Made by a program: the position numbers and the translations under genes. Below the pieces are notes generated by a model. The model worked only from the letters and a program-made list of their open reading frames with translations, was not told the DNA's origin and searched no databases. From assembly GCF_002799245.1 (NCBI RefSeq), contig NZ_NEQV01000004.1, positions 248,001-312,000 of the forward strand: 64,000 nt of DNA, in the 5' to 3' direction. Below, in pieces: positions 2,858-64,000 of the stretch. Each line of letters begins with the position of its first letter. Within the stretch, counting starts at the first letter, position 1. The stretch comes from Stenotrophomonas maltophilia (lineage in GTDB: Bacteria; Pseudomonadota; Gammaproteobacteria; Xanthomonadales; Xanthomonadaceae).

Positions 2858-2861
2858 ACCG

Positions 2862-2890
2862 AAAACCCCGGCCCCGCGCCGGGGTTTTTT
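2862..2890 (+). terminator. Intrinsic terminator of gpsA
   Basis: A 10-bp perfect stem (AAAACCCCGG at 2862-2871 with CCGGGGTTTT at 2879-2888) and a 7-base loop are followed by more T residues to 2890. It begins five bases after the gpsA stop codon. Its T tract overlaps the element's attachment core. Confidence 0.9.
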
Positions 2891-2893
2891 CAT
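2886..2893. other. attL core of the integrated element (TTTTTCAT)
   Basis: TTTTTCAT lies at the end of the gpsA terminator, 175 bp before the integrase start. Elements of the Tn4371 ICE family are known to use an 8-bp TTTTTCAT core at attL and attR. The position next to the integrase and at the chromosome/element switch fits. The matching attR must lie beyond the right edge, so the call cannot be closed from this window. Confidence 0.75.
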
Positions 2894-3068
2894 TTCACCA
2901 TGACTCCAGCACCGAACTTTGCTGGACTACGCCGAAGCTCGATACAGCAGGTTTATCAATCACTTAGGTGAGTTCAACATATGCCGGTGCTTTCCGAAAT
3001 CTGACCCAACTTCCCGGCTGGTGGCCCCTATAAGGCTCTTGGGAATCGGGTCTTTCCGAGGAGTCATC

Positions 3069-24379: not shown

Positions 24380-25225
24380 ATGTCCAGCCCGCCAGGGCAA
24401 GCCTTGCAGCAGCGCGAACAGCTCGACCTGTTCCGCGCCCTGCCGGGCGACATGGCGCCGCGCGACAGCCAGGACTTGATGGCCTTTCCGTTCTTCTCGC
24501 TGGCGAAGTCGCGTCGCACCGCGCCGATCGACTTCCGGGCGGGCGGCATCACCATCCGCGTGGAAGGCACGCAGGAGCACGGCATCGCCACGATATGGGA
24601 TGCCGACATCCTGATCTGGGCCGCCAGCCAGATCGTGGAAGCCCGCGATGCGGGCATACCGACCTCGCGGCTGATGCAGGTGCGCCCCTACGAGATCTTG
24701 CGCTTCATCGGGCGCGGTACGTCGCTGCGCGACTACCAGCGCCTGAAAGCCGCGCTCGACCGGCTGCAATCGACCACAGTGGCCACGTCCATCCGCGAAA
24801 CCACGGGAAGGCGATTGCATCGCTTCTCGTGGATCAACGAGTGGAAGGAACTGGCCGATGCCAGCGGCACACCGCTGGGCATCGAGCTGATCCTGCCGGA
24901 CTGGTTCTACGCGGGCGTGGTGGACGCGGCCCTGGTGCTGACCATCGACCCGACGTACTTCCGGCTCACGGGCGGCATCGAGCGGTGGCTGTACCGGCTG
25001 GTGCGCAAGCACGGCGGACGGCAGGAACACGGCTGGCAATTCGACTTCCAGCACCTGTACCGCAAGTCGGGCAGCGTGGCGCGCTTCTACGACTTCGCCG
25101 CCGACCTGCGCGCGCTGGTGGCACGGCAGTCGCTGCCCGGCTACGTCCTGGGCATCGAGCGGATGCCCGGCGAGAAAACCGAACTGCTGACCTTCCGGCC
25201 CGTGCCGCCCACGGCACGGGGATAA
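24380..25225 (+). CDS. repA: Plasmid-type replication initiator RepA
   Basis: A 281-residue RepA/RPA-family initiator. The central region (SQDLMAFPFFSLAKSRRTAPIDF, then IATIWDADILIWAASQI, then RLKAALDRLQSTTVATSI) is that of broad-host-range plasmid RepA proteins with tandem winged helices. It would bind iterons and open a replication origin. Three such repeats follow 24 bp after its stop. ATG 24380 is preferred; a GTG at 24368 is also open. It starts the repA-parA-DUF2840-traF block and suggests that the ICE can replicate for a time after excision. Confidence 0.9.
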   Translation: MSSPPGQALQQREQLDLFRALPGDMAPRDSQDLMAFPFFSLAKSRRTAPIDFRAGGITIRVEGTQEHGIATIWDADILIWAASQIVEARDAGIPTSRLMQVRPYEILRFIGRGTSLRDYQRLKAALDRLQSTTVATSIRETTGRRLHRFSWINEWKELADASGTPLGIELILPDWFYAGVVDAALVLTIDPTYFRLTGGIERWLYRLVRKHGGRQEHGWQFDFQHLYRKSGSVARFYDFAADLRALVARQSLPGYVLGIERMPGEKTELLTFRPVPPTARG

Positions 25226-25248
25226 CTGCGGGACAACCTGTTAATTCA

Positions 25249-25314
25249 CTCGTGCTATCAGGCAACAGGAGGCTCGTGCTATCAGGCAACAAATCCTCGT
25301 GCTATCAGGCACAA
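25249..25314. repeat. Three iterons, probable replication origin
   Basis: CTCGTGCTATCAGGCA occurs three times on the + strand, beginning at 25249, 25273 and 25296 (periods 24 and 23 bp). The first two copies agree over 19 bases. They lie directly after repA and before an AT-rich stretch (25358-25392), the usual layout of an iteron origin. Binding by RepA is inferred. Confidence 0.8.
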
Positions 25315-25478
25315 AAATCGGCTGCAAACCCGCGCCGTTGCTGGGTTTGCGCGCCCCTTAACTTCCCTAACAGTAAATACATAACTTTTAGTAGAAGCGC
25401 GCCGTTTCGGTGGACAACCGCCAAACGGCACGAAAAGCAGGAGCGAAAGACCGGCTTTCCAGTACGGAGGGCCGCGCC

Positions 25479-26117
25479 ATGATCCTCGCTCTTCTCAACC
25501 AGAAAGGCGGTGTCGGCAAGACCACGCTCGCCACCCATATCGCGGGCGAACTGGCGATGCGCGGTCTGCACGTCATCCTGCTGGACGCCGATCCGCAGGG
25601 TTCCTCGCTCGACTGGACGCAGCGCAGAAGCCAGCAAGGCTTGCCACGGTTGTTCAGCGCCGTGGGCCTTGCCCGCGAAACGCTGCATCAGGAAGCACCA
25701 GAACTCGCCAGGCGGGCCGATCACGTCATCATCGACGGCCCGCCACGCATCGCCGCCTTGGCGCGCTCCGCGCTGCTGGCGGCCGAGCGCGTGCTGATTC
25801 CCGTACAGCCCAGTCCCTATGACGTGTGGGCCAGCGCCGAGATGGTTTCGCTGATCCGCGAGGCGCAGGTGTTCCGGCCTGCGCTGCGCGCGGCCTTCGT
25901 CATCAATCGGCGCGTCAGCACCACCATCATCGGCCGCGAGGCGCGGCAATCGCTGGCCGAACAGCCGCTGCCCGCGCTGCGCTCGGAGGTGCATCAGCGC
26001 ATCGTGTTCGCCGACAGCGTGGCCGCTGGCCGGCTCGCCCGCGAGACAACGCCCGACAGCGCCGCTGCCCGCGAAATCACCGCCCTGGTGGACGAACTGC
26101 TGCGGTGGCCGACATGA
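25479..26117 (+). CDS. parA: ParA-type partition ATPase
   Basis: A 212-residue Walker-type ATPase. The deviant Walker A is NQKGGVGKTT (residues 7-16), followed by LLDADPQGSSLDW and the Walker B-like VIIDGPPR. It is a short ParA without an N-terminal DNA-binding domain. With RepA it would support maintenance of the excised circle. In this element the ParB gene lies apart (16794) and is frameshifted. ATG 25479 has GGAGG 8-12 bases upstream. The stop overlaps the next start (ATGA). Confidence 0.93.
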   Translation: MILALLNQKGGVGKTTLATHIAGELAMRGLHVILLDADPQGSSLDWTQRRSQQGLPRLFSAVGLARETLHQEAPELARRADHVIIDGPPRIAALARSALLAAERVLIPVQPSPYDVWASAEMVSLIREAQVFRPALRAAFVINRRVSTTIIGREARQSLAEQPLPALRSEVHQRIVFADSVAAGRLARETTPDSAAAREITALVDELLRWPT

Positions 26118-27536: not shown

Positions 27537-27984
27537 TGGCCGCCGATTCGCTGCACGTTGCCGTGCATCTCATCGTGCCATCGGGCGTGTCGTTCTGCTG
27601 GCCGTCGCCGTGTCGTCGCGCGTGCAGTGCGGGTGCATTCGCACCGCACTTCGCGCTGCCTTCGGCGCAGCCGTCCAACGTGCAGGCGTCTTGCCTCGAA
27701 CGCGCCCGGTCTATGGCCGTCGCCGCGTTTGCCGGCGGGCTGGCTGCTTGCGCAGCAGCGCCGCCGGGCCGCCGACGCCCGGAGCGACAGCGAGGGGCAA
27801 AGGCGGAAGGCAAGACAAAAGGGGGCGGCACCTGTCGGCCCGTAAAGCCAGTCTGCACATGGGGTTGGTGCGGCACGGAGCGGCTTCGCCGCCGTGCCGC
27901 GTATGGCGCGAGGCCCGCGCCAATGCAGGCATGTCCGCGTGCTTCGCACGACAGGACACGCCAGAGCTTGCAGGGAGCACAGCC
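27537..27984. other. Non-coding region before the relaxase gene, candidate oriT
   Basis: No convincing gene. A frame of 151 codons from 27533 crosses it but looks compositional. The stretch 27790-27840 is purine-rich (AAAGGCGGAAGGCAAGACAA). At about 27869-27899 lies an inverted repeat GCGGCACGG/CCGTGCCGC with a nested CGGC/GCCG, and near 27937 a GTGC-TTC-GCAC hairpin. Origins of transfer are usually just upstream of the relaxase and carry such inverted repeats. No nic site can be named. Confidence 0.45.
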
Positions 27985-29979
27985 ATGAGCGACCGCCGCG
28001 ATGACGATTTTCGCGTGCGCCCCAGCGCCCCGAAGAACCGGGGCAAGGGCCAAGGGCAGAGCTTCGTTTCCAAGGTGCTCAAGCAGACGGGCAAGGCCAG
28101 CAGCGGCAAGTCCACAGTGCGCCGTCCTGGCTCGGCGGGCGGCACCGGCCAACGGCCCGGATCGCGCCTGGGGCGCGGCCATACGGCGGCGCGCTTTGCG
28201 GGCGCGAAGCTGACGCCGATGTCCCGGCGCGTGACCATCAAGACGCTGCTGGTGAATCACCAGCGGGCCAGCCCGCAGTCGCTTGCCAAGCACCTGCGCT
28301 ACATCGAGCGCGATGGCGTGGGTCGCGACGGCGAGCCGGGCCAAGCCTATGGGCCGCAGACAGACATGGCCGACCTCGACGCCTTCAAGGAACGCTGCGC
28401 CGACGACCGGCACCATTTCCGCTTCATCCTCTCGCCCGAGGATTGCGTGGAGCTGGAAGACCTGCGCACCTACACGCGGCACCTCATGGGCCGCATGGAG
28501 GCCGACTTGGGCACGGGCCTCGACTGGGTGGCCGTGAACCACTGGAACACCGACAACCCGCACACGCACATCGTCGTGCGCGGGCGCGACGACACGGGCA
28601 AAGACCTCATCATCGCGGGCGACTACATCGCCGATGGCTTCCGCCACCGCGCCGCCGAGCTGGCGACCGAATGGCTGGGGCCGCGCACCGAGCTGGAGAT
28701 CCAGCAGACCTTGCAGCGCGAGGTGGAGCAAGAGCGGTGGACGAGCCTGGATCGCACCCTCAAACGAGAAATGGGCGAGGCCGGCGGCGATGGCCTGGTG
28801 CATACCGAACGGCTTAACGCCCCCCCCTTGCAGCGCCGGCGCCTGCTGCTGATCGGCCGCCTGCAACGCTTGCAGCGCCTGGGCCTGGCCGACGAGACGC
28901 GGCCGGGCACCTGGGCCGTCCATGCCGATGCAGAGAAGACCCTGTGCGCCCTGGGCGAGCGCGGCGACATCATCCGCACGATGCAGCGGGCCATGCGCGG
29001 CGAGCCGCGCGAGATGGCGGTGTTCGAGCCAGGCGACGATGGCCGAACCATCCTCGGGCGCGTGGCTGCGAAGGGACTGGCCGACGAACTGCACGACCGG
29101 GGCTATCTGGTCATCGACGGCGTGGACGGCAAGGCCCACTACGTCGCGCTCAACGCCCGCGACGAGCTGGCGAACTATCCGACCGGGGCCGTAGTGGAGG
29201 TGAAGGGTTCGGCCGACGTGCGCGCGGCCGACAGGAACATCGCCGCGCTGGCGAGCGATGGCTTGTACCGCACCGACCACCACCTCGCCATCGCGCAGGG
29301 CCAGGCCGTACCGGGCCGCGACCCGCAGGAAGTTGTGGCGGCCCATGTCCGCCGCCTGGAAGCCCTGCGCCGGGCGGGCATCGTGGAGCGTGTGGCGGAA
29401 GGGCTATGGAAGGTGCCGGGCGACCTGCCCGAGCAGGGCCGCCGCTACGACGCGCAACGCCTGGGCGGCGTGGCCGTGGAGCTGAAATCGCATTTGCCCA
29501 TCGAGTGGCAGGCACGCGTGATCGGGGCCACCTGGCTCGACCAGCAGTTGATCGGCGGCGGCTCGGGCCTGGGCGACCTGGGCTTTGGCGCGGAGGCCAA
29601 GCAGGCGATGCAGCAGCGCGCCGACTTCCTGGCCGAACAGGGTCTGGCCGAGCGGCGCGGGCAGCGTGTGATCCTGGCGCGCAACCTGCTGGGCACGCTG
29701 CGCAACCGGGAACTGGCGCAGGCCGCGAAGGACATTGCCGGCGAAACCGGCCTGGAGCATCGCCCGGTGGCCGACGGGCAGCGCGTGGCCGGCATCTACC
29801 GCCGCAGCGTCATGCTCGCCAGTGGGCGCTACGCGATGCTGGACGATGGCATGGGATTCAGCCTGGTGCCCTGGAAACCGGTAATTGAACAGCGCCTGGG
29901 GCAGCCGCTTGCGGCCATAGTGCGCGGTAGCGGGGTATGTTGGGAGATCGGGCGTAAACGCGGGCCTGCTATCGTTTGA
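27985..29979 (+). CDS. MobA/VirD2-like relaxase (DUF3363)
   Basis: A 664-residue conjugative relaxase. The basic N-terminal tail is followed by the relaxase domain (about 85-240) with the metal-binding motif H186...H193-T-H195 in HWNTDNPHTHIVVRG. A candidate catalytic Tyr is in KHLRYIERDG. The remaining 400 residues are the DUF3363 region typical of relaxases of Tn4371-like elements. It nicks oriT, stays covalently attached to the 5' end and pilots the strand to the transfer channel. ATG 27985 has CAGGGAG upstream; the longer frame from 27610 is not credible. The cargo region begins right after it. Confidence 0.92.
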   Translation: MSDRRDDDFRVRPSAPKNRGKGQGQSFVSKVLKQTGKASSGKSTVRRPGSAGGTGQRPGSRLGRGHTAARFAGAKLTPMSRRVTIKTLLVNHQRASPQSLAKHLRYIERDGVGRDGEPGQAYGPQTDMADLDAFKERCADDRHHFRFILSPEDCVELEDLRTYTRHLMGRMEADLGTGLDWVAVNHWNTDNPHTHIVVRGRDDTGKDLIIAGDYIADGFRHRAAELATEWLGPRTELEIQQTLQREVEQERWTSLDRTLKREMGEAGGDGLVHTERLNAPPLQRRRLLLIGRLQRLQRLGLADETRPGTWAVHADAEKTLCALGERGDIIRTMQRAMRGEPREMAVFEPGDDGRTILGRVAAKGLADELHDRGYLVIDGVDGKAHYVALNARDELANYPTGAVVEVKGSADVRAADRNIAALASDGLYRTDHHLAIAQGQAVPGRDPQEVVAAHVRRLEALRRAGIVERVAEGLWKVPGDLPEQGRRYDAQRLGGVAVELKSHLPIEWQARVIGATWLDQQLIGGGSGLGDLGFGAEAKQAMQQRADFLAEQGLAERRGQRVILARNLLGTLRNRELAQAAKDIAGETGLEHRPVADGQRVAGIYRRSVMLASGRYAMLDDGMGFSLVPWKPVIEQRLGQPLAAIVRGSGVCWEIGRKRGPAIV

Positions 29980-36119: not shown

Positions 36120-36128
36120 GGAGGCGCC

Positions 36129-45411: not shown

Positions 45412-45491
45412 ATCTGACCGATGTTCTGGTGCTTGCCCATCGGTGCATGCGCCAATGGCGCAGCGTTGCCCGCGCTGGCACAGTCACGCCC

Positions 45492-47024: not shown

Positions 47025-47084
47025 TCGTCAGACACGAGCGACTGCAGCGGTCAACATGGGTTCGCCGGACGCTTACAGTAATTT

Positions 47085-47256
47085 CCCCAAGGATGGCCTG
47101 CATAATCCTCGCGAGTCGGTGGTAGTGCGGACCGGGATGGGCCACAAAGCGTCTTTTTGCGGCCAATAGCTCGGCTATTGGCAAGAAAGGAAAGGCAGTG
47201 GACCGCCCGAGGCCGCGCCATCACGGGCCGCAGGGAGTTAGTCGTCCCTGATTTAT
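47085..47256. other. Short non-coding stretch between IS66 and the IS5-type transposase
   Basis: These 172 bp contain a perfect 9-bp hairpin (GCCAATAGC-TCG-GCTATTGGC, 47162-47182), with T residues only on its left side. The left end of the IS5-type element should be here or slightly to the right, near the GGGAGTTAGTCGTCCCTG at about 47233-47250, but its exact terminal repeat was not resolved. Confidence 0.4.
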
Positions 47257-48523: not shown

Positions 48524-48632
48524 CGATGGCGGACACGGTTCCATGCTGATGGCGGACAGTGTTCCAGCGTGATGGCGGACACCGTTCCACGCTGAAGGCG
48601 GACAGCATTCCAAACTGATGTCGGACACCTGC
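48524..48632. repeat. Multiple transposase-binding repeats at the IS21 left end
   Basis: The unit GATGGCGGACA followed by 2-3 bases and TTCCA occurs about five times in a row with small changes (for example GATGGCGGACAGTGTTCCA and GAAGGCGGACAGCATTCCA). Inverted copies are at the right end (about 51040-51172). Such tandem sites are typical for IstA binding. Confidence 0.8.
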
Positions 48633-48693
48633 GGGGTGTTTTGAGTGACCCGAACGCGGGATACGCTGCCCGGTTTTTTGACCGGAACCAGCG

Positions 48694-51620: not shown

Positions 51621-52643
51621 TTACCTGGACTCACCCGCCGGCTCTTGCACTCTTGTAGTCCAATCCGACGGCGCCATACCTTCCCAGCGCCGGAATGCGC
51701 GCCTGAAACTGGCGATGTCCGCATAGCCCAAGAAATAGGTCACTTCTTTGATGGAAGACCCTTTTCTGAGCAGTTTCAACGCCATGCGATGCCTAATTGA
51801 TTCCACTATTTCACGGTAAGAGGTTCCTTCTTCGATCAAGCGCCGATGAAGTGTCCGAGGCGTCGTGCTCAGCAGCCGTGCACATACGGTGAGATGAGGA
51901 ATTGGCGGAAGCCGTTCTAGAACAATTTTCTCCAATTTCGAGCCTGCGCTCCTGTTATCTCCAGTTTCATTTAACTCTTCGACGCAGAAGCGTACTGCCT
52001 CTGTTAGAACCAATGGATCGTATTTCTGGGTGACTTCTTCGGCAGCAGAAATATCAAAAGATAAACCTGACCATTTCTGATTGTATCGAACTGCGCAGCC
52101 GTAAACGCCGCGTGCCAGTGCCGCATGAGGCGGCTCAGGAAATTGAAAGTAAACCATATTGCAGGCACTGCGACTCAGAAATATGTCGTCGGCGATATTT
52201 TTGACTGCAACCATCGCGATTTCCGTCACCGTGTTGCTTGCAGAACCCAGACCGATCGCCGGTTCAAACCAGACCTCCAGACTTCCATTTACCTCGCGGG
52301 TATGAATACTGATAGCCTCCGTTCGGATGCAGACAAAACGCTCGACGATTTGCATGGCTTCACGGATGCTGCGGCTTGCCGCAGCCGCCATGCCGAGGAC
52401 ACCATGGGTTGCTGTAAGCAAACGACGCCCAGCCAATACCCCGAAGCCCGTCTCACGCGACAGACTGACGGCGCGGGTGATCAGCTCTCCAAACTTTTCG
52501 ACGGCAACTACCGCCGACGCATCGGCAAGATCATCTTGCTTGAGGTCGGAAATGGCCAGCCACGCCACGGTATCCACGCCCAGTTCAGCCGCTTGATCTG
52601 CAATTTGCCGCAGGTAGGTGACTCGAACAGTTTTTGGGTTCAC
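51621..52643 (-). CDS. AraC-family regulator of the hydrocarbon operon
   Basis: A 340-residue regulator. The N-terminal 200 residues are an arabinose-binding-like domain of the OruR/MmsR type (VRVTYLRQIADQAAELGVD at the start). The C-terminal helix-turn-helix pair is in CARLLSTTPRTLHRRLIEEGTSYREIVE and SSIKEVTYFLGYADIASFRRAFRRWEG taken in two parts. GTG 52643 gives the family N-terminus; an upstream start at 52733 is open but adds an unrelated leader. It is divergent from the monooxygenase gene, which it probably activates when an alkane or its oxidation product is present. Confidence 0.85.
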   Translation of the reverse strand: MNPKTVRVTYLRQIADQAAELGVDTVAWLAISDLKQDDLADASAVVAVEKFGELITRAVSLSRETGFGVLAGRRLLTATHGVLGMAAAASRSIREAMQIVERFVCIRTEAISIHTREVNGSLEVWFEPAIGLGSASNTVTEIAMVAVKNIADDIFLSRSACNMVYFQFPEPPHAALARGVYGCAVRYNQKWSGLSFDISAAEEVTQKYDPLVLTEAVRFCVEELNETGDNRSAGSKLEKIVLERLPPIPHLTVCARLLSTTPRTLHRRLIEEGTSYREIVESIRHRMALKLLRKGSSIKEVTYFLGYADIASFRRAFRRWEGMAPSDWTTRVQEPAGESR

Positions 52644-52864
52644 GGTTGTCTCGCTCCATGTTCTTGTGCCGGCCGGTGGCCTCCCTGAGGAGTCCGACAG
52701 GCTCCTCAGCCTTCTTCCTCTGATGACTATCAAAACGATCCTACACGTAGCGACAGGTGCTTGGCAAGAAATGCACCATGTTTGTCAGTTTATGCGCTTG
52801 CGACAGAAAGTGGTGGCGAAGTCTAATAAAAAAGCAAAAAAACATTCATTAGGAGACAACTGCG
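52644..52864. promoter_or_regulatory. Divergent control region between araC-type and monooxygenase genes
   Basis: Towards the + strand, TTGCGA (52798-52803) and TCTAAT (52822-52827) with an 18-bp spacer are a possible promoter. The stretch 52760-52800 has TTGGCAAGAAATG and TTGCGACAGAAAG, partly similar half-sites about 40 bp apart that an AraC dimer could use. An AT-rich segment and AGGAGA precede the ATG at 52865. Confidence 0.45.
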
Positions 52865-55126
52865 ATGAATTTTCTTCACGGAAGAAGCTTGCACCAGGCG
52901 GAGATAAACGGGCAGACCATCACCGTCGAGCCCGATGAGACTTTGCTGGAGGCAGCGCAACGCCAGAACATCAACATTCCCTCCATCTGTCGCGTCGGCG
53001 GCTGCGGGACTTGCAAGTGCAAGCTCAAGAGCGGCAAGGTTGACGAACTGACCGAGACGGCGTACCTGCTGACGGAGAAGGAAATCTCCGACGGGTTCAT
53101 ACTGGCCTGCCAGAGCCGCCTGCGCAGCGATGTGAAAATCGAGCTGGATCGGGAGGGCGCGATCGATGGCCCTCCGGTCAAGGGCGTGATCGTCGGCAAG
53201 CAAATGCTGACTCACGACATCGCGAGAATCGACCTTCGACTGGACACGCCAATCCGCTATCGCGCCGGCCAGTTTGCAGAGGTCACGCTGTCCTCGATGG
53301 CGGATGCCCCTCGCAGCTATTCGTTCTCGACCGCGCCTGGCAATGATCGCCAAGTGAGTTTCACGGTGCGCCGTGTGCCGGGGGGGCGGGTGTCCGGGCA
53401 TCTCGTGGACCAGGCGCAGGTGGGCGAGTCGGTCACCGTGCGCGGTCCCGGCGGTCACTTCTACATGCGCCCGGGCCGGGAGCCAGTCCTTATGGTGGCC
53501 GGTGGCAGCGGCTTGGCACCCATCCTCGCGATGCTTCAAGACATGAAGCGCTCGGGCGACATGCGGCCGGTGACGGTACTGTTTGGCGCTCGGAGCCAGA
53601 AGGATTTGTACGCGCTCGACGAGATGGCAGCCTACGAAAAAGCTTGGCCGAACTTCCGGTTCGTGCCGGTGCTGTCCGCGGCTGACCCTTCGTCGCCCTG
53701 GGACGGGCGCACTGGCTTGGTGACGGAGCACATTCCAGAACTGCTTGGGGGTGCCACGTCGGCCTATCTGTGTGGCCCACCAGCCATGATCGACTCGGCC
53801 ATCGCCGCCCTGCGCCAGCGTGGTATTGCAGACACGAATTTGCACGCGGACCGCTTCGTCGATCAGGCCCCCAAGCTCCACACCGGGTTCTACGGCGCTG
53901 TCGGCTTGCCCACTGTTGAGCGTGTGCCAGCCAATATCTTGGACTATCTGAAGTTCTTTCTTTTGCATGGGGTGGGGATCGGTGCTGTGGCGTCCATTCT
54001 GGCGGGCGGCGTCTACACCAGTTTGGGGCTGCTCGGCTTTCTCATCTTCTACATTGGCGGCGATGCGCTGTTGGGCCACGACACCCGAACGCCCAAATAC
54101 AAATCACCGTGGATTCTGACGGTGCAACTGTGGTTCATCCTGCCCCTGGTGGCGCTGATCGTATTCGCCTACGTCTGGACGCTTTCTTCCGGTGATCCAT
54201 TGGGATTCGGCGCGTGGGTGACCCATCTCACCCAATACGACATACTGGCCGCCCGGGAGGCAACGGGCTTTTGGCACCACCTCGCCGGCGGCGTATTTAC
54301 CGGCTTCATGATCGGTGTCCTGGGAACGATCACGGCGCACGAGTTGACGCATCGCACTTGGGAACCGGTCTCGATGTTCATTGGTCGTTGGTTGTTGTCT
54401 TTCAGCTACGACGTGGGATTCGCCATCGAGCATGTCTACGGGCATCACCGCTATGTATCCACCGAGCATGACCCGGCCACGGCCCCGCGAGGCCGCAATG
54501 TGTATCTACACATCGTGATGTCCACCATTCGCGGCAACGTCAGCGCCTGGCGCATCGAAGCTGAACGCCTCAAGCGCAAGCATCTTCCGGTGATCTCCAT
54601 CCACAACGCCTATATCCGCGGCTTGCTCATGAGTGCGGTGCTCGTGGCCATCGCCTACTGGATGGCGGGATGGATCGGCGTGCTTGGATTTACCGGCAGT
54701 GCGCTGTTCGGAAAATCGCTGCTGGAAATCGTGAACTACATGGAGCATTACGGCATGGTGCGCGCTCCCGATCAGGCTGTACAACTACGGCACTCATGGA
54801 ATACCAATGCCAGAATGAGTTCCTGGGCCATGTTCAATCTCAGTCGGCATTCGCACCACCATGCCCAAGGCGAGGTGCCTTACCAGAACTTGATGCCGTT
54901 GCCGGAGGCCCCGACGATGGTCGCTGGCTACCTCAGCACGATACTGCTGACGCTGCTCCCGCCGCTTTGGCAGCGAATCATGGTCCCCAAGATCGTGGAG
55001 TGGGATCGGCATTACGCCACGCCAGAGGAGAGGGTGTTGGCGCTGCGTGCAAACCAGAAAAGCGGCCTGAAGGCATTGCGGCGCTACGACCCACGCCAAT
55101 GGAACAAGGAATTGGCGGCTGACTGA
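52865..55126 (+). CDS. Ferredoxin / ferredoxin reductase / AlkB-XylM hydroxylase fusion
   Basis: One 753-residue protein with a whole monooxygenase chain. Residues 1-95 are a plant-type [2Fe-2S] ferredoxin (C42, C47, C50 and C82). Residues about 100-335 are an FNR module: FAD site RSYSFSTAP, NAD site VAGGSGLAPILAML, and LCGPPAMID. From about 355 it is a membrane-bound di-iron hydroxylase of the AlkB/XylM family, with His boxes H492-ELTH496, EH523VYGH527H528 and H662-S-HHH666, plus NYMEHYG. Six or so membrane helices lie around these. Electrons would run from NADH through FAD and [2Fe-2S] to the di-iron centre. The reductase part resembles XylA and the rest XylM or AlkB; alkane or methylarene as substrate is open. 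Confidence 0.88.
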   Translation: MNFLHGRSLHQAEINGQTITVEPDETLLEAAQRQNINIPSICRVGGCGTCKCKLKSGKVDELTETAYLLTEKEISDGFILACQSRLRSDVKIELDREGAIDGPPVKGVIVGKQMLTHDIARIDLRLDTPIRYRAGQFAEVTLSSMADAPRSYSFSTAPGNDRQVSFTVRRVPGGRVSGHLVDQAQVGESVTVRGPGGHFYMRPGREPVLMVAGGSGLAPILAMLQDMKRSGDMRPVTVLFGARSQKDLYALDEMAAYEKAWPNFRFVPVLSAADPSSPWDGRTGLVTEHIPELLGGATSAYLCGPPAMIDSAIAALRQRGIADTNLHADRFVDQAPKLHTGFYGAVGLPTVERVPANILDYLKFFLLHGVGIGAVASILAGGVYTSLGLLGFLIFYIGGDALLGHDTRTPKYKSPWILTVQLWFILPLVALIVFAYVWTLSSGDPLGFGAWVTHLTQYDILAAREATGFWHHLAGGVFTGFMIGVLGTITAHELTHRTWEPVSMFIGRWLLSFSYDVGFAIEHVYGHHRYVSTEHDPATAPRGRNVYLHIVMSTIRGNVSAWRIEAERLKRKHLPVISIHNAYIRGLLMSAVLVAIAYWMAGWIGVLGFTGSALFGKSLLEIVNYMEHYGMVRAPDQAVQLRHSWNTNARMSSWAMFNLSRHSHHHAQGEVPYQNLMPLPEAPTMVAGYLSTILLTLLPPLWQRIMVPKIVEWDRHYATPEERVLALRANQKSGLKALRRYDPRQWNKELAAD

Positions 55127-55193: not shown

Positions 55194-56870
55194 ATGAATT
55201 TCGATTACATCATCGTAGGCGGCGGCTCTGCCGGCGCCACCCTGGCCTCGCGGCTGAGTGAAGATTCCAGCATCAGTGTTTGCCTGCTTGAAGCGGGCGG
55301 ACAAGGCGACTCATTGGTCGTCCGCATGCCGGCAGGAACGGCGGCCATGATGCCTGGCAAGGGCAAGATCAATAACTGGGCATTGAACACGGTACCTCAG
55401 CCGCACCTCAATGGTCGGCTGGGCTATCAACCGCGGGGCCGCGCCCTTGGCGGATCTTCGGCCATCAACGCCATGCTCTACGTCCGGGGCCAGCGCCAGG
55501 ACTACGATCAATGGGCCGATCTGGGGTGTGATGGGTGGGACTGGGACTCGGTGCTGCCGTATTTCCTGAAGGCAGAGAACAACGAGCGTGGAGCGAGCAA
55601 ACTCCATGGCGGGAGCGGACCTTTGCAAGTGTCCGAGCAACGTAGCCCCAGGCCGATCACGCTTGCGTTCATTGAGGCAGCCAAGCAGCGCGGCATTCCG
55701 TTTCGTGCCGATTTCAATGATGGGGACAACGAAGGCGTTGGCTTGTATCAGGTCACGCAATTCCACGATGCCGCCCGCCGAGGCGAGCGTTGCTCCGCGG
55801 CAGCCGCATACTTGCATCCTCTGCGGGGGCAACGGCCGAATCTCACGATCAAGACAAATACCCGCGCCAGCCGGATCCTCTTCGAGGGCAAGCGCGCCGT
55901 GGGCGTGGCCTACCATGCCAGCGGTGCCGAACACGAGGTCAGAGCCGGGCGGGAGGTCATTCTGGCTGCCGGCGCCTTTGGTTCACCGCAGATTCTTCAA
56001 CTGTCCGGCGTCGGGCGCCCGGAAGACATCACCCATCACGGCATCCGCATGGTGCATGAGTTGCCCGGTGTGGGCCAGAACTTGCAGGATCACCTGGATT
56101 TCATTCTGGCCTACACCTCCCAGGACACTGACAACTTCGGCATCGGACTCAAAGGGTCAGTGGACATGCTGGGCCACATTGCAAGTTGGCGCAAGGATGG
56201 CAGCGGCATGCTTGCCACCCCATTTGCCGAGGGTGGCGCATTCTTCAAGAGCGCCCCTGACGTGGATCGGCCGGATTTGCAACTGCACTTCGTGATCTCG
56301 ATCGTGGACGACCACGCGCGCAAACTGCATATCGGGTATGGTTACTCGTGCCACGTCTGCAATCTGCGCCCTTACTCGCGTGGCGAGGTATTCTTGCAAT
56401 CACCCAACCCGCTGGACGACCCTGGAATCGATCCACGCTTCCTGTCTGACGAGCGTGACGTGAAGCTCCTGGTCCAAGGGGCCAAGGCCATGCGAGAGAT
56501 CATGCTGGCATCCCCCTTGGCCAAGTACCGTGGGCGCGAATTGTTCGGCGTTACCGATGGCATGAGTGATGCGCAATGGGCCCAGCTCATTCGAGACCGC
56601 TCCGACACCATTTACCACCCGGTCGGCACCTGCAAGATGGGCGTGGACCCAATGGCCGTGGTCGATGCGGAGCTGAAGGTACATGGTATTCAAGGGCTGC
56701 GCGTCGTCGATGCCTCCATCATGCCGACTTTGATCAGCGGCAACACCAACGCGCCAACCATCATGATCGCCGAGAGGACTGCGGACCTCATTAAACGAGC
56801 ACATGGACACCCAGCCCAGACTTCCCGAAAGAACGAACGCCAAGCATACGAGAGCGCACTCCTCAGGTAA
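55194..56870 (+). CDS. GMC-family alcohol dehydrogenase (AlkJ-like)
   Basis: A 558-residue flavoenzyme. The FAD-binding motif is YIIVGGGSAGATLASRLSE, followed by the GMC signature GGSSAINAMLYVRG. The C-terminal catalytic region shows IYHPVGTCKMG with the active His and VVDASIMPTLISGNTNAPTIMIAE. AlkJ-type enzymes oxidise medium-chain alcohols to aldehydes and pass electrons to the membrane quinone pool. Length (about 560) fits AlkJ. It would take the product of the monooxygenase. The ribosome site before ATG 55194 is poor (GTGGGAT). Confidence 0.88.
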   Translation: MNFDYIIVGGGSAGATLASRLSEDSSISVCLLEAGGQGDSLVVRMPAGTAAMMPGKGKINNWALNTVPQPHLNGRLGYQPRGRALGGSSAINAMLYVRGQRQDYDQWADLGCDGWDWDSVLPYFLKAENNERGASKLHGGSGPLQVSEQRSPRPITLAFIEAAKQRGIPFRADFNDGDNEGVGLYQVTQFHDAARRGERCSAAAAYLHPLRGQRPNLTIKTNTRASRILFEGKRAVGVAYHASGAEHEVRAGREVILAAGAFGSPQILQLSGVGRPEDITHHGIRMVHELPGVGQNLQDHLDFILAYTSQDTDNFGIGLKGSVDMLGHIASWRKDGSGMLATPFAEGGAFFKSAPDVDRPDLQLHFVISIVDDHARKLHIGYGYSCHVCNLRPYSRGEVFLQSPNPLDDPGIDPRFLSDERDVKLLVQGAKAMREIMLASPLAKYRGRELFGVTDGMSDAQWAQLIRDRSDTIYHPVGTCKMGVDPMAVVDAELKVHGIQGLRVVDASIMPTLISGNTNAPTIMIAERTADLIKRAHGHPAQTSRKNERQAYESALLR

Positions 56871-57029: not shown

Positions 57030-58670
57030 ATGCTCGGAAAAATGATGCGCGAGCCTTTGCTCGTCTCCAGTCTCATCGCCCATGCTGCGCGTTACCATGC
57101 CGATACGCCAGTCGTTTCCGTCAACACCACGGGCGGGATCGAACACACGACTTGGGGTCAAGTCGAGATCAATGCGCGACGCCTGTCGTCAGCGCTGGCC
57201 AAGCTGGGCGTGCAATCGGGCGAGCGCTGCGCGACCATTGCATGGAACAATCGGCGACATTTGGAAATTTACTATGGCGTTTCCGGCGCGGGCATGGTGT
57301 GCCACACGGTCAATCCGCGCCTGTCCGCCGAAACCCTGATCTACATCGTCAACCACGCCGATGATCAGGTGCTGTTCATCGACCGGACCTTTCTGCCCAT
57401 TGTCGCCAAGCTTCGGTCGGCATTGAGCACCGTCAAACATGTCATTCTCATGGGGCCACGCGATGAGGAGGCATCGGGCATGTTGGATGGCTTGCGGTTC
57501 TACGACGAGGTGGTCGCATCGGGCGACGCCGACTACCCGTGGCCGAGCATTGACGAGGATCTACCTTCGTCGTTGTGTTACACCTCCGGCACTACGGGAC
57601 ATCCGAAGGGTGTGCTTTACAGCCACCGCTCCACGGTGCTGCATGCGTTGGCGGGCAACAGCCCGGACGGCATTGGCGTTTCGGCCCGCGATGCTGTCAT
57701 GCCGGTTGTTCCCATGTTTCACGTCAACGCCTGGGGAGTGCCCTACATTGCGGCGGCGCAGGGAGCGAAACTGGTATTGCCTGGCCCGAACCTTGACGGC
57801 CCAAGTCTCGCCACCCTGATCGACGACGAGGAAGTCGGTCTGGCACTTGGCGTTCCCACGATCTGGATGGGACTGCTGGCGGCGTTGAGGGCGCGCGGCA
57901 CCAAGCCCAAAAGCTTGAAACGCACCATCGTTGGCGGCGCGGCACTGCCGCCGTCGATGTTCGCCGCGTTCCGGGACGAGTTCGGTGTCGAACTGATCCA
58001 TGCCTGGGGCATGACCGAAACGAGCCCGCTGGGCACCCTGAATCAACCACTGGCTCGCCACATTCATCTTGATCCTCAGCGGCAGAGCGAAGTGCGACTG
58101 GGGCAGGGACGACCACCCTACGGCGTTCAGCTGCGCGTGGTCGATGACGGCGGCGCAGTCTTGCCGAACGACGGCAAATCCCCGGGCAAACTACAGATCA
58201 GGGGGCACTGGATCGTCAGCAGCTACTTCGGCGCCGAATCCAGTGCGCTGACCAGTGATGGCTGGTTCGACACCGGTGATATAGCAACGCTTGATGCCAA
58301 CGGCTATATGGTCATCCGCGACCGCGCCAAGGACATCATCAAGTCTGGTGGAGAGTGGATTTCATCGGTCGATATCGAGAACATCGCTATCGGACATCCT
58401 GCCATCGCCAATGCGGCGGCAATCGGCGTGCCCCACCCGAAGTGGGACGAACGACCGGTTCTGGTCGCCGTGAAAAAGGAAGGCGCGAATGTGTCCGAAG
58501 CGGACCTTCTGGCCTTCTTCAAAGGACGTTTGCCGGACTGGCAGATCCCCGACAAAGCCGTCTTCATTGACGCGTTGCCACTCAGTGGCACTGGGAAGGT
58601 GTTCAAGAACAGGCTCCGCGAAGCCTATGGCGGCCTCCTGGCCGGAAGTACCAGGGAGAGCACGCAGTGA
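57030..58670 (+). CDS. AlkK-like fatty acid-CoA ligase
   Basis: A 546-residue AMP-forming ligase. The ATP-binding motif is LCYTSGTTGHPKGVLYSHRS, followed by AWGMTETSPLGTL and the C-terminal GWFDTGDIATLDANGY and IKSGGEWISSVDIEN. The N-terminus (MREPLLVSSLIAHAARYHADTPVVS) closely resembles AlkK-type medium-chain ligases. It converts fatty acids from the pathway to acyl-CoA for beta-oxidation. It lies 159 bp after the dehydrogenase, and its stop overlaps the aldehyde dehydrogenase GTG start. Confidence 0.92.
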   Translation: MLGKMMREPLLVSSLIAHAARYHADTPVVSVNTTGGIEHTTWGQVEINARRLSSALAKLGVQSGERCATIAWNNRRHLEIYYGVSGAGMVCHTVNPRLSAETLIYIVNHADDQVLFIDRTFLPIVAKLRSALSTVKHVILMGPRDEEASGMLDGLRFYDEVVASGDADYPWPSIDEDLPSSLCYTSGTTGHPKGVLYSHRSTVLHALAGNSPDGIGVSARDAVMPVVPMFHVNAWGVPYIAAAQGAKLVLPGPNLDGPSLATLIDDEEVGLALGVPTIWMGLLAALRARGTKPKSLKRTIVGGAALPPSMFAAFRDEFGVELIHAWGMTETSPLGTLNQPLARHIHLDPQRQSEVRLGQGRPPYGVQLRVVDDGGAVLPNDGKSPGKLQIRGHWIVSSYFGAESSALTSDGWFDTGDIATLDANGYMVIRDRAKDIIKSGGEWISSVDIENIAIGHPAIANAAAIGVPHPKWDERPVLVAVKKEGANVSEADLLAFFKGRLPDWQIPDKAVFIDALPLSGTGKVFKNRLREAYGGLLAGSTRESTQ

Positions 58671-60406
58671 CGGGTACCGCTCTCCCAAATTTCGATATTC
58701 AGGCCCTGTTGGATCAGGACTTGCAGGCACTGGATGGGGCCAAGCACCACTGGGCAAAAACCTCGGTCGCGGATCGGATTGCTATCCTCGGCCGCATCAA
58801 GCCGGCGCTGATGCAGGTTGCGCAGGGGTGGGCGGAGACAGCTGCCCGGAAGAAGCGCATTCCGCATGCATCGCCGCTGGCCGGGGAGGAATGGCTCTCC
58901 GGCCCCTACGCCCTCATGGGCGCCTGCAACGGGTTGATGCAGACACTCGGTGCCATTGATAGAAAGGAATACCTCAATCACCTGCCCTTGCGCCACCTCA
59001 AGAATGGGCTATTGGCGGTTAGAGTTCTGCCCCATTCGATCTGGGATCGGTTGCTCCTATCCGGGGTCTCAGCTGAAGTCTGGATGCAAAAGGGAATCTC
59101 CGAGGCCAGTCTCGCTCAACATGCTGCGGTCGCCTATGACATCGCTCCCGAACAGCGGCGCGGTAAGGTGGCCCTAGTCTTGGGGGCAGGAAACATCGCG
59201 GCCATCTCGCCTCTCGATGCATTTCAGAAGCTGTTTATCGAAAACCAGGTGGTTCTGCTGAAGATGAATCCGGTCAACGACTACCTGACCGACTATCTCA
59301 ATGCAGCCCTGCGGCCCCTGATCGAATGCAACGCACTACGCATCGTTCGCGGCGATGGCGCTGTGGGGGCCTACTTGTGCGAGCATCCGCTGGTGGAGGA
59401 AATTCACATCACCGGCGCCAAGGCCACCCACGATGCCATCGTTTGGGGCATCGGAGAAGAAGGCGCACGCAATAAGGCCGCGAATACACCGAAGAACCAC
59501 CGAAAGATCACGTCCGAACTAGGCGCAGTTTGCCCCACCATTGTGGTGCCCGGGCCGTGGTCGACCGCCGACATCCGCTTTCAAGCCGAACAGATAGCAA
59601 CTCACAAGTTGCACAACTCCGGCTTTAACTGCGTGGCATGCCAAACCCTAATAGTACCTCGTGGCTGGCAACATACGGACAAACTTTTGTCTGCTATATC
59701 CAATGTCATGTCGCGCTACGGCCAGCGGGAGGCCTACTACCCTGGCAACCAGCAGCGCATTGAGGAATTTGCTGCCCACGCTGGGGGTTCGGATGCGATC
59801 GACCGTGGGCTTCGTGCACCCGCGTGCGTTCTTGCGAACATGGATCGGGGCGATGAGTCCTGGCTGGCGCAGCACGAAATCTTCGGCACGGCGTTAGCAA
59901 TGAAATCCTTCGAATATGAAGATGCGGGGTCATACCTTGAATCAGCCGTTGTGTACGCTAATGACCGCTTGTACGGCAGTCTGGGGGCAAATATTCTGAT
60001 TCACCCCAAGACTGTGCGAGAGATCGGTCGTCAACGCTTCGAAGAACTGCTTCAAAAGCTGCGCTACGGCACCATCGCCGTTAATGCTTGGACCGGATTG
60101 GGATTTCTGCTTGCACCCTGCCCCTGGGGAGGATTTCCCGGAGGGTCGTCGCGCGATCCGCAATCTGGTATTGGGACGGTACATAACTCGTTCATGCTTG
60201 AAGGAACGGAGCGTACCGTCATATCCGCCCCATGGCGACCATTCCCTCGCAGTCTGCTCTCACTGCATCCAACGCTCCTTCCTCGGCCACCTTGGTTCAT
60301 CACGAACCGGCGGCAAGATGTGATTGGCCGTCTCTTGACCGACTTCCAGTTCAAACCCAGCTGGACCAAGCTGCCGAGGATTTTCGTCAACGCCCTGCGT
60401 GGGTGA
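58667..60406 (+). CDS. Aldehyde dehydrogenase family protein (AlkH-type role)
   Basis: A 579-residue enzyme from a GTG start coupled to alkK-like (GTGA). The catalytic Cys is C322 in NSGFNCVACQTL and the general-base Glu is in ITSELGAVCP. The nucleotide-binding part has VLGAGNIAAISPLDA, not the usual sequence, and the protein is about 80 residues longer than common ALDHs with an unusual N-terminal 100 and a C-terminal tail (PRSLLSLHPTLLPRPPW). It would oxidise the fatty aldehyde to the acid, closing the gap between GMC dehydrogenase and ligase. Acyl-CoA reductase activity in reverse is an alternative. Confidence 0.82.
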   Translation: MTGTALPNFDIQALLDQDLQALDGAKHHWAKTSVADRIAILGRIKPALMQVAQGWAETAARKKRIPHASPLAGEEWLSGPYALMGACNGLMQTLGAIDRKEYLNHLPLRHLKNGLLAVRVLPHSIWDRLLLSGVSAEVWMQKGISEASLAQHAAVAYDIAPEQRRGKVALVLGAGNIAAISPLDAFQKLFIENQVVLLKMNPVNDYLTDYLNAALRPLIECNALRIVRGDGAVGAYLCEHPLVEEIHITGAKATHDAIVWGIGEEGARNKAANTPKNHRKITSELGAVCPTIVVPGPWSTADIRFQAEQIATHKLHNSGFNCVACQTLIVPRGWQHTDKLLSAISNVMSRYGQREAYYPGNQQRIEEFAAHAGGSDAIDRGLRAPACVLANMDRGDESWLAQHEIFGTALAMKSFEYEDAGSYLESAVVYANDRLYGSLGANILIHPKTVREIGRQRFEELLQKLRYGTIAVNAWTGLGFLLAPCPWGGFPGGSSRDPQSGIGTVHNSFMLEGTERTVISAPWRPFPRSLLSLHPTLLPRPPWFITNRRQDVIGRLLTDFQFKPSWTKLPRIFVNALRG

Positions 60407-61087
60407 CGGCGAGAAATTCATACCAATTTGAAAGGATTTTCAGTTTACCCAAGCAAGTCTGGAGGTGAATCAAGGGCTCTTTCGCTACAGACTCTTTCCG
60501 ACTTTGCGTGGGTTAAGCAGTTGCGGGCCTATCTGAACGAAGTTGGGCTTGCCTGTGCTCAGGAAGAATACGGTTCACCTGGTGGCGAAGCGGGTAGACG
60601 CGCGCCTTGCGCTTAGCCGCATGGAAGAAGCCGTTGGTCTGACGGACTTACGTCTAGGCAACGATGTCCTCGAAATGTTTGCGGATCAGACAAGCGCCCC
60701 TCCTCGGCTCAACCCCGGAGCGCATGAAGGTCGTGTACCACTGGGTGCGCATCTCGCACGCGACGATGGTCTGCTTCCGAACGGGGAACTCGTGCAGCCG
60801 CTTTCGGTAAAGGCTCGCGCGCCGTGCGCTTGGTCGCAACTTGGGTGATGAGGCTGCTCAGATCGGCCCGTAGGAAGGCGGACAGGCGGATGCGGTCTCT
60901 GATCAACGCCCAGCATGAGCCCTCGAGATCCGGTTGGATCTTCTGTCCAAGGTGAGGCGTCTAGTCAACATCGCTTGTGACGTGGGCAACGAAGTAGAAC
61001 TTATCGAAGGCAATGCACGCGTTGGGGCAGGTCACTCGGCCATGCATCACCACAAGGCTTTGCCAGTCACCTAGTGAGGAACGGGAT
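60407..61087. other. Stretch without a recognisable intact gene
   Basis: About 680 bp between the hydrocarbon operon and the ICE LysR gene. Frames of 60-101 codons cross it on both strands (for example 60543-60848 on +, and 60654-60839 and 60709-60906 on -). Two minus-strand frames look as if they were once one (ATKRTAR then LYRKRLHEFPVRKQ), hinting at a decayed gene, perhaps a transposase end, but I could not name it. This is probably the junction of cargo and backbone. Confidence 0.4.
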
Positions 61088-62032
61088 ATGGAACTTCGTC
61101 ATTTGCGCTGCTTTCTGGCTGTGGCCGAAGAACTCCACTTCGCCCGCGCCGCCGAGCGATTGTATATCGAGCAGTCGCCGCTATCGCGCGCCATCAAGGA
61201 ACTGGAAGAAGAACTAGGCGTGATTTTGTTTGCTCGTACCACACGCAGCACGCGGCTAACCCGAGCCGGGAATCTGTTCCTTGAGCACGTGCGTCGCGTG
61301 TTTGCTGCCTTGGAACAAGCGCGTGACAGCGTGAAAGCGGCAGCCAATGGCTTTCACAGGCAACTGCGCGTGGCTCTGTCCGACGGTATCACGCTGTCGC
61401 GCCTATCCGCTTTGCTTGTACTTTGTCGCCAAGAAGAACCTGAGGTCGAGATTCGCCTCTTCGAGGTGCCGCTGTCGCAGCAGATCAAAGGGCTGCATGA
61501 CGATCTCTATGACGTAGGGTTCGCCCAGTCCAACGAAGTTGGCAATGGCATCGTTTCCGTGCCCGCTTGGAGCGATGCGCTGATAGTGGCAGTGCCCGCT
61601 CGGCACCCCCTACTGGCACATAAGCGCATTCCTTTAGACGAACTTTTGCGCTATCCGTTGGTCTTGTGCGATCCACAGGCATGTGAAGGCCATGCCAAGC
61701 ACGTTGAGCGGGTGCTACGCCGCGCGGATATGGAGCCACTGATTGCAGAGCGGGTGGCATCCACTGACCTGATGATGGCCCTGGTATCAGCCGGCTTCGC
61801 GCTGGGACTGGTCGGTGCCGCACGCATTGCTGCCAATCGCGAGCCTGGCGTCGTGGCCCGGCCGTTGGCATCGCGCGTGCCGCCTTTGACAACTTACCTG
61901 CTGCGTCTCGAAGGCAACTCGTCCGATGTGCTGGCGCGGTTCATTGAGCGCGTGCAGGCCGTCGAGTCACCGGAGTCGCCCGGGCCCATACCGGACCTCC
62001 ATCCCGATCCACCGGAGGAACCGAGGCCGTGA
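61088..62032 (+). CDS. LysR-type regulator of the transfer region (TraR position)
   Basis: A 314-residue LysR protein. The helix-turn-helix is MELRHLRCFLAVAEELHFARAAERL to SPLSRAIKELEEELG. The effector domain follows (about 92-290), and a Pro-rich tail (SPESPGPIPDLHPDPP) ends it. In Tn4371 a LysR gene called traR occupies this place before traG. ATG 61088 has GAGGAACGGGA upstream. The stop overlaps the lipoprotein start (ATGA), an unusual coupling of a regulator with an exclusion gene. Confidence 0.88.
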   Translation: MELRHLRCFLAVAEELHFARAAERLYIEQSPLSRAIKELEEELGVILFARTTRSTRLTRAGNLFLEHVRRVFAALEQARDSVKAAANGFHRQLRVALSDGITLSRLSALLVLCRQEEPEVEIRLFEVPLSQQIKGLHDDLYDVGFAQSNEVGNGIVSVPAWSDALIVAVPARHPLLAHKRIPLDELLRYPLVLCDPQACEGHAKHVERVLRRADMEPLIAERVASTDLMMALVSAGFALGLVGAARIAANREPGVVARPLASRVPPLTTYLLRLEGNSSDVLARFIERVQAVESPESPGPIPDLHPDPPEEPRP

Positions 62033-62541: not shown

Positions 62542-64000
62542 ATGCAAGGGACGAACGTACTGTTCGGTCAGATCGCCGTGGTATTCGGCATCGTGATCGC
62601 TGGCGTCTGGAGCGCCACGCAATGGACAGCCGCCGCTCTGGGCTATCAGCTACGCCTTGGCTCGCCCTGGTTTGATTTCCTGGGTACGCCGATCTACCAC
62701 CCGTGGCGGTTGTTCGAGTGGTGGTTCTTCTTCGACGCCTACGCGCCCCGTGTTTTCGACATCGGCGGTGCGTTTGCCGGCGGCAGCGGCCTTGTCGCTG
62801 TGCTGGTCGCCATCGGCATGTCGATCTGGCGCTCGCGCCAATCACGCCTCGTCACCACCTACGGCTCGGCCCGCTGGGCCAACGCGGAGGACATTCGCAA
62901 GGCGGGCCTCACGCAGCCGGCCGGCGTGTTCCTCGGCCAGCACGACCGCCAGTACCTGCGCCACGAAGGCCCGGAACACGTCCTGACCTTCGCGCCGACG
63001 CGCAGCGGCAAGGGTGTCGGCCTGGTGGTGCCAACGCTGCTTTCCTGGCCCGCGTCCGCCGTCGTCCATGACATCAAGGGCGAGAACTGGCAGATCACCG
63101 CCGGCTGGCGCTCGCGCTTCTCGCATTGCCTGCTGTTCAACCCCACGGATGCGAAGTCGGCGGCCTACAACCCGCTGCTGGAGGTGCGGCGCGGCGCGCA
63201 TGAGGTGCGCGACGTGCAGAACATCGCGGACATTCTGGTCGATCCCGAAGGCGCGCTGGAGAAGCGCAACCATTGGGAGAAGACTTCGCACGCGCTGCTG
63301 GTGGGCGCCATCCTGCATGTTCTGTATGCGGGCGAAGACAAGACGCTGCGCGGCGTCGCCAACTTCCTCTCCGATCCGGCCAGTCCCTTCGAGCTGACCC
63401 TGCACCGGATGATGACCACGCCCCACCTGATGAACGGGAACGGTGGAAGCCCGCATCCGGTGGTGGCCTCTGCGGCGCGCGAAGTGCTCAACAAGAGCGA
63501 CAACGAGCGCTCGGGCGTGCTGTCCACCGCCATGTCGTTCCTCGGCCTGTACCGAGACCCTACGGTGGCCGAAGTCACGTCGCGCTGCGACTGGCGCATT
63601 GCAGACCTCATTTCCGCCGAGCACCCGGTATCGCTGTACCTCGTAGTGCCGCCTTCGGACATTTCGCGCACGAAGCCGCTGATCCGCTTGATCCTCAACC
63701 AGATCGGGCGGCGGCTCACCGAATCACTCGACGGCAGCGATGGCATCGAGCGCCGCCACAAGCTGCTGCTGATGCTCGATGAGTTTCCGGCGCTCGGGCG
63801 CCTGGACTTCTTCGAGACGGCCTTGGCCTTCATGGCGGGCTACGGCATCCGCAGCTTCCTCATCGCGCAGTCGCTCAACCAGATCGACAAGGCGTATGGG
63901 CAGAACCATTCGATCCTCGACAACTGCCATGTGCGCGTGACGTTCGCCACCAACGACGAACGCACGGCCAAGCGCATTTCCGAGACGCTGGGCACCGCGA
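62542..64000 (+). CDS. traG: Type IV coupling protein TraG/VirD4 (5' part)
   Basis: The first 486 codons are in the window; the frame runs off the right edge. Two N-terminal membrane segments (about residues 8-32 and 75-93) precede the cytoplasmic ATPase domain. Walker A is FAPTRSGKGVG with K157; Walker B is LLLMLDEFPALG. TraG couples the relaxase-DNA complex to the mating-pair channel. ATG 62542 follows GGAGGCAAGG. The trb genes are expected downstream. Confidence 0.93.
   Translation, partial: MQGTNVLFGQIAVVFGIVIAGVWSATQWTAAALGYQLRLGSPWFDFLGTPIYHPWRLFEWWFFFDAYAPRVFDIGGAFAGGSGLVAVLVAIGMSIWRSRQSRLVTTYGSARWANAEDIRKAGLTQPAGVFLGQHDRQYLRHEGPEHVLTFAPTRSGKGVGLVVPTLLSWPASAVVHDIKGENWQITAGWRSRFSHCLLFNPTDAKSAAYNPLLEVRRGAHEVRDVQNIADILVDPEGALEKRNHWEKTSHALLVGAILHVLYAGEDKTLRGVANFLSDPASPFELTLHRMMTTPHLMNGNGGSPHPVVASAAREVLNKSDNERSGVLSTAMSFLGLYRDPTVAEVTSRCDWRIADLISAEHPVSLYLVVPPSDISRTKPLIRLILNQIGRRLTESLDGSDGIERRHKLLLMLDEFPALGRLDFFETALAFMAGYGIRSFLIAQSLNQIDKAYGQNHSILDNCHVRVTFATNDERTAKRISETLGTA

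Follow-up and report, generated by a model that had tools for sequence, protein, structure and literature searches.

A ferredoxin–reductase–AlkB-type fusion, predicted to be an NADH-driven alkane hydroxylase, on a Tn4371-type element of Stenotrophomonas maltophilia

Classical AlkB works with rubredoxin and rubredoxin reductase, and in the structure solved by cryo-EM its irons are bound by nine histidines and one glutamate (PMC10113152). A three-domain class, ferr_ferrR_AlkB, was suggested by Nie in 2014, and Williams in 2021 found it to be expressed and active, with no alkene epoxidation, both according to a review (PMC8918992). Polaromonas, Limnobacter and Leptospira are named for this class in PMC10113152, and the fused enzyme needs NADH alone and prefers C10–C12, as cited in PMC12903215.

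Pseudomonas putida EM2-4, reported in 2026 (PMC12903215), carries a 754-aa fusion, checked by Sanger sequencing and expressed, on a 62-kb alkane ICE. The strain grows on n-octane and n-decane and not on C6, C12, C14 or C16, and it no longer grows on n-octane when the alkB gene is missing. The authors call the protein a hydroxylase-desaturase fusion and suppose host electron donors for it. The element on the Polaromonas naphthalenivorans plasmid pPNAP01 was listed in 2009 as a Tn4371-like ICE, ICETn43716065, with the cargo 'Biphenyl degradation'; in the same source, TTTTTCAT is the end repeat of Tn4371 and several members, several others lacking or varying it (PMC2789088). In the Tn4371 and alkane literature surveyed, which includes a beta-myrcene ICE, no alkane hydroxylase cargo was found. 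Both the fused class and a member on an alkane ICE were already described before the copy presented here, and an earlier note on this DNA overstated the novelty of a mobile version: besides the EM2-4 ICE fusion (PMC12903215), pPNAP01, with its listed Tn4371-like ICE (PMC2789088), carries an 81% identical fusion.

The window analysed here is a stretch of 64,000 nucleotides from Stenotrophomonas maltophilia (contig NZ_NEQV01000004.1, positions 248,001 to 312,000). We conclude with good confidence that the fusion it carries is an NADH-driven alkane 1-hydroxylase in a single chain and belongs to the ferredoxin–ferredoxin reductase–AlkB class, accompanied by its downstream pathway on a Tn4371-type ICE (Table 1). 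It shares with the three-domain class the one-chain domain order and the predicted chemistry, has the AlkB diiron ligand set, and groups with the pPNAP01 protein, which we infer to be the Polaromonas member meant. ORF41 of EM2-4 and the window fusion are 754 and 753 aa long, with the domain border at ~333, and the EM2-4 ICE, like the window, has alkB, alkJ, alkH and alkK genes without rubredoxin or rubredoxin reductase genes; the kinship of the two fusions is judged from length, domain border and gene set. The EM2-4 ICE has 62 kb, against ~72 kb here. Whereas the EM2-4 protein was described as a hydroxylase-desaturase, the N-terminal part of the window protein is a ferredoxin-reductase.

Table 1. 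Features of the fusion, its operon and the surrounding element, in window numbering.
Feature	Position	Strand	Evidence
Left end repeat TTTTTCAT, just after gpsA (1832–2857)	2886..2893	+	motif search
Tyrosine integrase of the element	2919..4274	+	
ParB homologue; two pPNAP01 ParB pieces, 16794–17048 at 62% and 17041–18759 at 72%	16794..18846	+	
Homologues of repA (84%) and parA (91%) of pPNAP01 (match coordinates)	24380..26108	+	
RlxS-type relaxase with DUF3363	27610..29979	+	profile match
Divergent AraC-family regulator, probable operon regulator; QhpR and CypR model matches, both below cut-off	51621..52733	-	Pfam
Fused ferredoxin–reductase–alkane hydroxylase (predicted), 753 aa	52865..55126	+	ORF, Pfam, alignments
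[2Fe-2S] ferredoxin domain, aa 14–86; C42, C47, C50, C82	52904..53122	+	Pfam, alignment
FAD-/NAD-binding reductase domains, aa 108–311; RSYS, GGSGL, CGPP	53186..53797	+	Pfam, alignment
Linker, aa 333–357	53861..53935	+	alignment, dN/dS
Membrane diiron hydroxylase domain, aa 358–753; nine His and one Glu ligands	53936..55123	+	Pfam, tree, alignment
GMC oxidoreductase, probable alcohol dehydrogenase (AlkJ-like)	55194..56870	+	Pfam
Acyl-CoA ligase (AlkK-like)	57030..58670	+	Pfam
Divergent aldehyde dehydrogenase, putative AlkH-like role; 4-base overlap with ligase	58667..60406	+	Pfam
LysR-family regulator immediately preceding TraG; Tepidicella and Pseudoxanthomonas copies 99.7% identical	61013..62032	+	Pfam, locus comparison
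TraG coupling protein, extending past the window end; trb genes next on the contig	62542..64000	+	

Reading frame, electron chain and hydroxylase half

The fusion is one continuous ORF from its ATG to its stop, without internal stop codons, and an AGGAG stretch stands directly 5' of the ATG (by eye). Pfam bears out the earlier note's view of ferredoxin, reductase and hydroxylase in a single chain: from a [2Fe-2S] ferredoxin through an FAD/NAD reductase to a membrane diiron hydroxylase, Fer2 (14–86), FAD_binding_6 (108–200), NAD_binding_1 (210–311) and the FA_desaturase fold (470–679) all matched above their curated cut-offs. The cysteines, cofactor sites and histidine boxes are kept, as that note had also read them; across six aligned fusions C42, C47, C50, C82, RSYS (150–153), GGSGLAP (213–219) and CGPP (303–306) do not change. 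The proposed XylA-like electron chain held up as well, since the best solved-structure match of the front 336 residues was the benzoate dioxygenase reductase BenC (1krh, 2e-57) and the reductase half is 41% identical to XylA; by homology the chain is of the BenC/XylA type. An AlphaFold model from the six-row alignment was too poor for use (pLDDT 45.5, pTM 0.30), and a promoter and terminator scan gave signals no better than in shuffles.

Both halves of the fusion are under purifying selection. Against five relatives, dN/dS was 0.10–0.21 for the whole protein and 0.00–0.07 for the linker, a short stretch of 25 codons. These values bear on the idea that the fused reductase is dispensable, a host ferredoxin or rubredoxin feeding the hydroxylase while the fusion is kept by linkage alone. 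We regard this as improbable: in comparisons with Polaromonas and the three nearest relatives the reductase half has a lower dN/dS than the hydroxylase half, though not in that with Rugamonas (0.153 vs 0.138), the linker is conserved, and the flavin, NAD and cluster motifs are invariant in the six fusions. The idea draws on a Paraglaciecola relative with a free ferredoxin (described below) and on EM2-4 strains with an intact AlkB domain, which according to their authors still grew on octane, the mutants not being clearly specified in the text (PMC12903215).

In the hydroxylase half, all ten AlkB iron-ligand positions are kept in the alignment (H492, H496, H523, H527, H528, E627, H628, H662, H665 and H666), and at E ≤ 0.001 the sole solved-structure matches of the rear 416 residues were the alkane monooxygenases 8f6t (4.1e-37) and 8sbb (6.6e-32). 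The ligand glutamate is present in 23 of the 29 aligned hydroxylases, namely the window clade, three neighbours and seven AlkB-type rows, and is replaced by glutamine in all six XylM-type rows, of which the pWW0 row alone is annotated xylM and the other five were assigned by tree. The last box reads RHSHHH in 14 rows, RHSAHH in two, RHSDHH in the seven AlkB-type rows and NHxxHH in the six XylM-type rows. The XylM box pattern taken from the pWW0 row (glutamine at the glutamate site, AHxxTHH, NHxxHH) is absent from the window hydroxylase. In the tree, for which one partial ORF (L036:4-891) of 29 BLAST matches was excluded, the hydroxylase half falls inside a 13-row clade (100/98) separate from the AlkB and XylM groups, which sit on long branches (1.75 and 1.98), with weak deeper joins (67/74).

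The earlier label of an AlkB/XylM hydroxylase, put to the AlkB and XylM comparison of the phylogenetic check that the note had proposed, stands in part. By its iron-ligand glutamate the half is AlkB-type, while its sequence places it with neither XylM nor classical AlkB. It has the nine histidines and glutamate in common with classical AlkB but differs in its fused ferredoxin-type chain, its ~25% identity and its RHSHHH in place of RHSDHH; an identity as XylM was rejected on the glutamate and the other boxes. Because the half is only ~25% identical to rubredoxin-type AlkB (24.8 and 25.4% to two AlkB rows) and 29% (28.5%) to XylM, the substrate is not settled by homology alone.

The alternative in which an XylA-like front end and an XylM-like oxygenase form a self-sufficient xylene- or cymene-type methyl hydroxylase strikes us as very unlikely. 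Although the reductase half is nearest to BenC/XylA-type reductases and identity to XylM is no lower than to the two AlkB rows, the window shares its glutamate with all seven AlkB-type rows against the glutamine of the six XylM-type rows. XylM and XylA of pWW0 are separate genes, with xylM flanked by benzaldehyde dehydrogenase and zinc-type dehydrogenase genes, unlike the window operon with its acyl-CoA ligase and GMC dehydrogenase. The fused class is, moreover, reported as active on alkanes (PMC8918992, PMC12903215).

Fused, split and ferredoxin-only relatives

Six exact peptide patterns were run against GTDB contigs, an approach limited to close relatives, and returned seven loci. Five are fused, one pairs the hydroxylase with a separate ferredoxin, and one is a reductase-like match. 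Identity of the fused loci to the window was 95% in Tepidicella, 94% in Pseudoxanthomonas, 87% in Hydrogenophaga, 77% in Rugamonas and 60% in Microbulbifer. Among plasmid records, the pPNAP01 fusion was 80.7% identical over 99% and sits between relaxase and TraG genes, and a Hydrocarboniclastica plasmid (L030, 7983-10271) has split ferredoxin-reductase and hydroxylase genes in the fusion order, 75 bases apart.

Nine of 398 genomes in an order-level draw matched at 1e-60, three of them over the reductase half. The other six have full-length fusions and include the genome of the window itself and the Pseudoxanthomonas locus in a second record. Within the genus, 1 of 91 genomes matched at 1e-60, the window's own. 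In a class-level draw of 369 genomes, four matched at 1e-100. Besides the genome of the window, these were three that matched over the hydroxylase half, and in one of the three (L016) a separate ferredoxin-reductase gene adjoins the hydroxylase. We infer that the window host belongs to the same family as Pseudoxanthomonas and to a different genus; one other case of such a fusion was seen in the host family.

Ten other proteins from separate records are fused at the same domain border. Because of these and of the purifying selection on both halves, the join is no artefact. We looked for the frameshift or sequencing join that could have undone the single-chain reading and found neither. The unfused sister with the same gene order on the Hydrocarboniclastica plasmid is what an assembly or sequencing join of two genes would have in its favour, but given the fused relatives, the open frame under selection, and the EM2-4 join confirmed by Sanger sequencing with a product of ~83 kDa (PMC12903215), we give it practically no weight and reject it. 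The five closest fusions have a near-identical linker, whose length or sequence is different in the remaining ones.

In the reductase tree, all 11 fused rows group (92/84), with the split Hydrocarboniclastica reductase as sister; the seven weakest of 30 matches (L028, L027, L002, L013, L003, L004 and L005) were excluded. The BLAST set was taken without L001, L019-L023 and L031, copies of loci in use, and without L017, L018 and L039, which are plain flanks. In the hydroxylase tree the fusions do not group, yet forcing them together was not rejected (p-AU 0.192). A split arrangement fused later would be the simplest history; on these trees, one fusion with a later split and a second fusion event are both possible.

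In a Paraglaciecola MAG (L011, 9989-11409) the hydroxylase belongs to the same clade and is preceded, at a distance of 23 bases, by an ORF for a free 90-aa [2Fe-2S] ferredoxin; the divergent AraC gene is kept. Among ORFs of at least 150 aa in this 14.6-kb locus there was no reductase relative, which in a MAG may lie elsewhere. The free ferredoxin without a reductase relative in the locus suggests that the ferredoxin is the direct electron donor of the hydroxylase.

In a distant fusion (L035, genome G463), the hydroxylase half is 57% and the reductase half 38% identical to those of the window, RGFS replaces RSYS and the GGSGL motif is missing. Its reductase is perhaps replaced or degenerate, and the protein may work differently from the window fusion.

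Alkane operon and Tn4371-type element

The fusion and the three genes after it run in one direction, with gaps of 67 bases to the GMC gene and 159 bases from there to the acyl-CoA ligase. The block of AraC, fusion, GMC, ligase and aldehyde dehydrogenase genes is also found in Tepidicella, Pseudoxanthomonas and Polaromonas, and is conserved in Hydrogenophaga with an OmpW-like match within it; in the Rugamonas locus only the AraC, fusion and GMC genes were found. In the pPNAP01 operon the aldehyde dehydrogenase gene is followed by one for an OmpW (AlkL-like) protein. The window has no ORF of this kind at 60407-61012, and no OmpW/AlkL match was found elsewhere in the element at 1e-8. The LysR gene stands before TraG, which we take to be the place of traR in Tn4371 elements.

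A check for separate rubredoxin genes, which had been proposed along with the fusion, found none beside the hydroxylase or in the element; the sole rubredoxin match of the genome is on another contig, and a rubredoxin partner within the element was rejected. Searched with the whole fusion, the genome showed no other hydroxylase half; it has three further members of the FA_desaturase family.

By gene content and ends, the carrier appears to be a Tn4371-type ICE of about 72 kb. The integrase, relaxase, TraG and Trb genes and the TTTTTCAT ends agree with the conjugative setting claimed at first, and the integrase, repA-parA, parB, rlxS and traG-trb genes are common to Tn4371-family ICEs. The relaxase matched the RlxS model at 647.8 bits, under the curated cut-off of 850. 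TrbB, E, L, F, G and I are present; the gene check did not cover TrbC, TrbD and rdfS, and the one candidate ORF tried for TrbJ had no Pfam match. The right copy of TTTTTCAT lies outside the window on the same contig, after the trb genes (323163-323170; 75163 in window numbering). In 79 kb the repeat has two + copies (2886, 75163) and one - copy (3525), and because eight bases are short, we give weight to these positions and not to mere occurrence. No inverted repeats were found in 2000-3000 of the window. The left flank has a G+C of 0.68 and the element one of 0.635; the alkane block stands at 0.588, and the 3.8 kb past the right repeat at 0.647. Because this last stretch is closer in G+C to the element than to the left flank, and two ORFs tried there had no Pfam match, the right border is the less certain of the two.

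TraG is 85%, TrbE 86% and ParA 91% identical to those of pPNAP01. The end repeats are as in Tn4371 and several members, and are given as absent for pPNAP01 in PMC2789088. The pPNAP01 fusion is in another host family, and the ICE with the window fusion appears to be chromosomal. Cargo order differs from pPNAP01, with a Lamassu defence set, IS66 and IS21 added; in Pseudoxanthomonas the alkane block directly follows the relaxase, whereas in the window the two are separated by a pump, lipid-gene cargo and two insertion sequences. In practice the element would be expected to be mobile.

Other cargo includes an RND efflux operon and, in the same stretch (30162-42492), a UbiB-patatin-polyprenyl synthase-glycosyltransferase block, both also on the pPNAP01 element in another order. 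At 45369-50238, transposase genes of the IS66 and IS21 families separate the lipid block from the alkane operon. A Lamassu-type defence set lies at 5130-8784 on the - strand (PADLOC LmuB 7.3e-132, LmuC 1.1e-15, LmuA 7.2e-75), with Pfam matches to DUF3732, an ABC-3C middle component and CTD7. An ATPase at 12727-14271 (-) has a weak ORC-CDC6-like match (31.5 bits, cut-off 27).

Predicted reaction and meaning for the family

The membrane enzyme very likely oxidises oil alkanes, and the self-sufficient hydroxylase is probably functional. NADH would pass a hydride to the FAD of the fusion, from which single electrons would travel through the [2Fe-2S] cluster to the membrane diiron site; this would activate O2 and insert one oxygen at the terminal carbon of a medium-chain n-alkane. 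The GMC dehydrogenase would turn the alcohol into the aldehyde, and the two downstream enzymes would carry it through the acid to the acyl-CoA.

More tentatively, the clade may form a separate alkane hydroxylase branch that keeps the AlkB iron ligands, takes electrons from a [2Fe-2S] ferredoxin instead of rubredoxin, has the RHSHHH histidine in place of AlkB's conserved aspartate (RHSDHH) beside the last ligands, and exists in free-ferredoxin, split and fused forms. We consider this possible though doubtful. If it is true, the forms of the branch show a stepwise route to a self-sufficient and then mobile monooxygenase, and the RHSHHH histidine may underlie the narrow chain-length range and the reported lack of epoxidation.

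The window copy suggests an answer to the missing donors of the EM2-4 paper, in that the front ~330 residues of the window protein would themselves be the donor. The relatives with a split pair or with a ferredoxin alone allow a natural comparison of which electron module the hydroxylase requires. The Tn4371-type ICE family spans beta- and gammaproteobacteria, and a one-gene, NADH-only hydroxylase with its pathway on such an ICE could bring growth on medium-chain alkanes to a new host in a single transfer, as reported for EM2-4.
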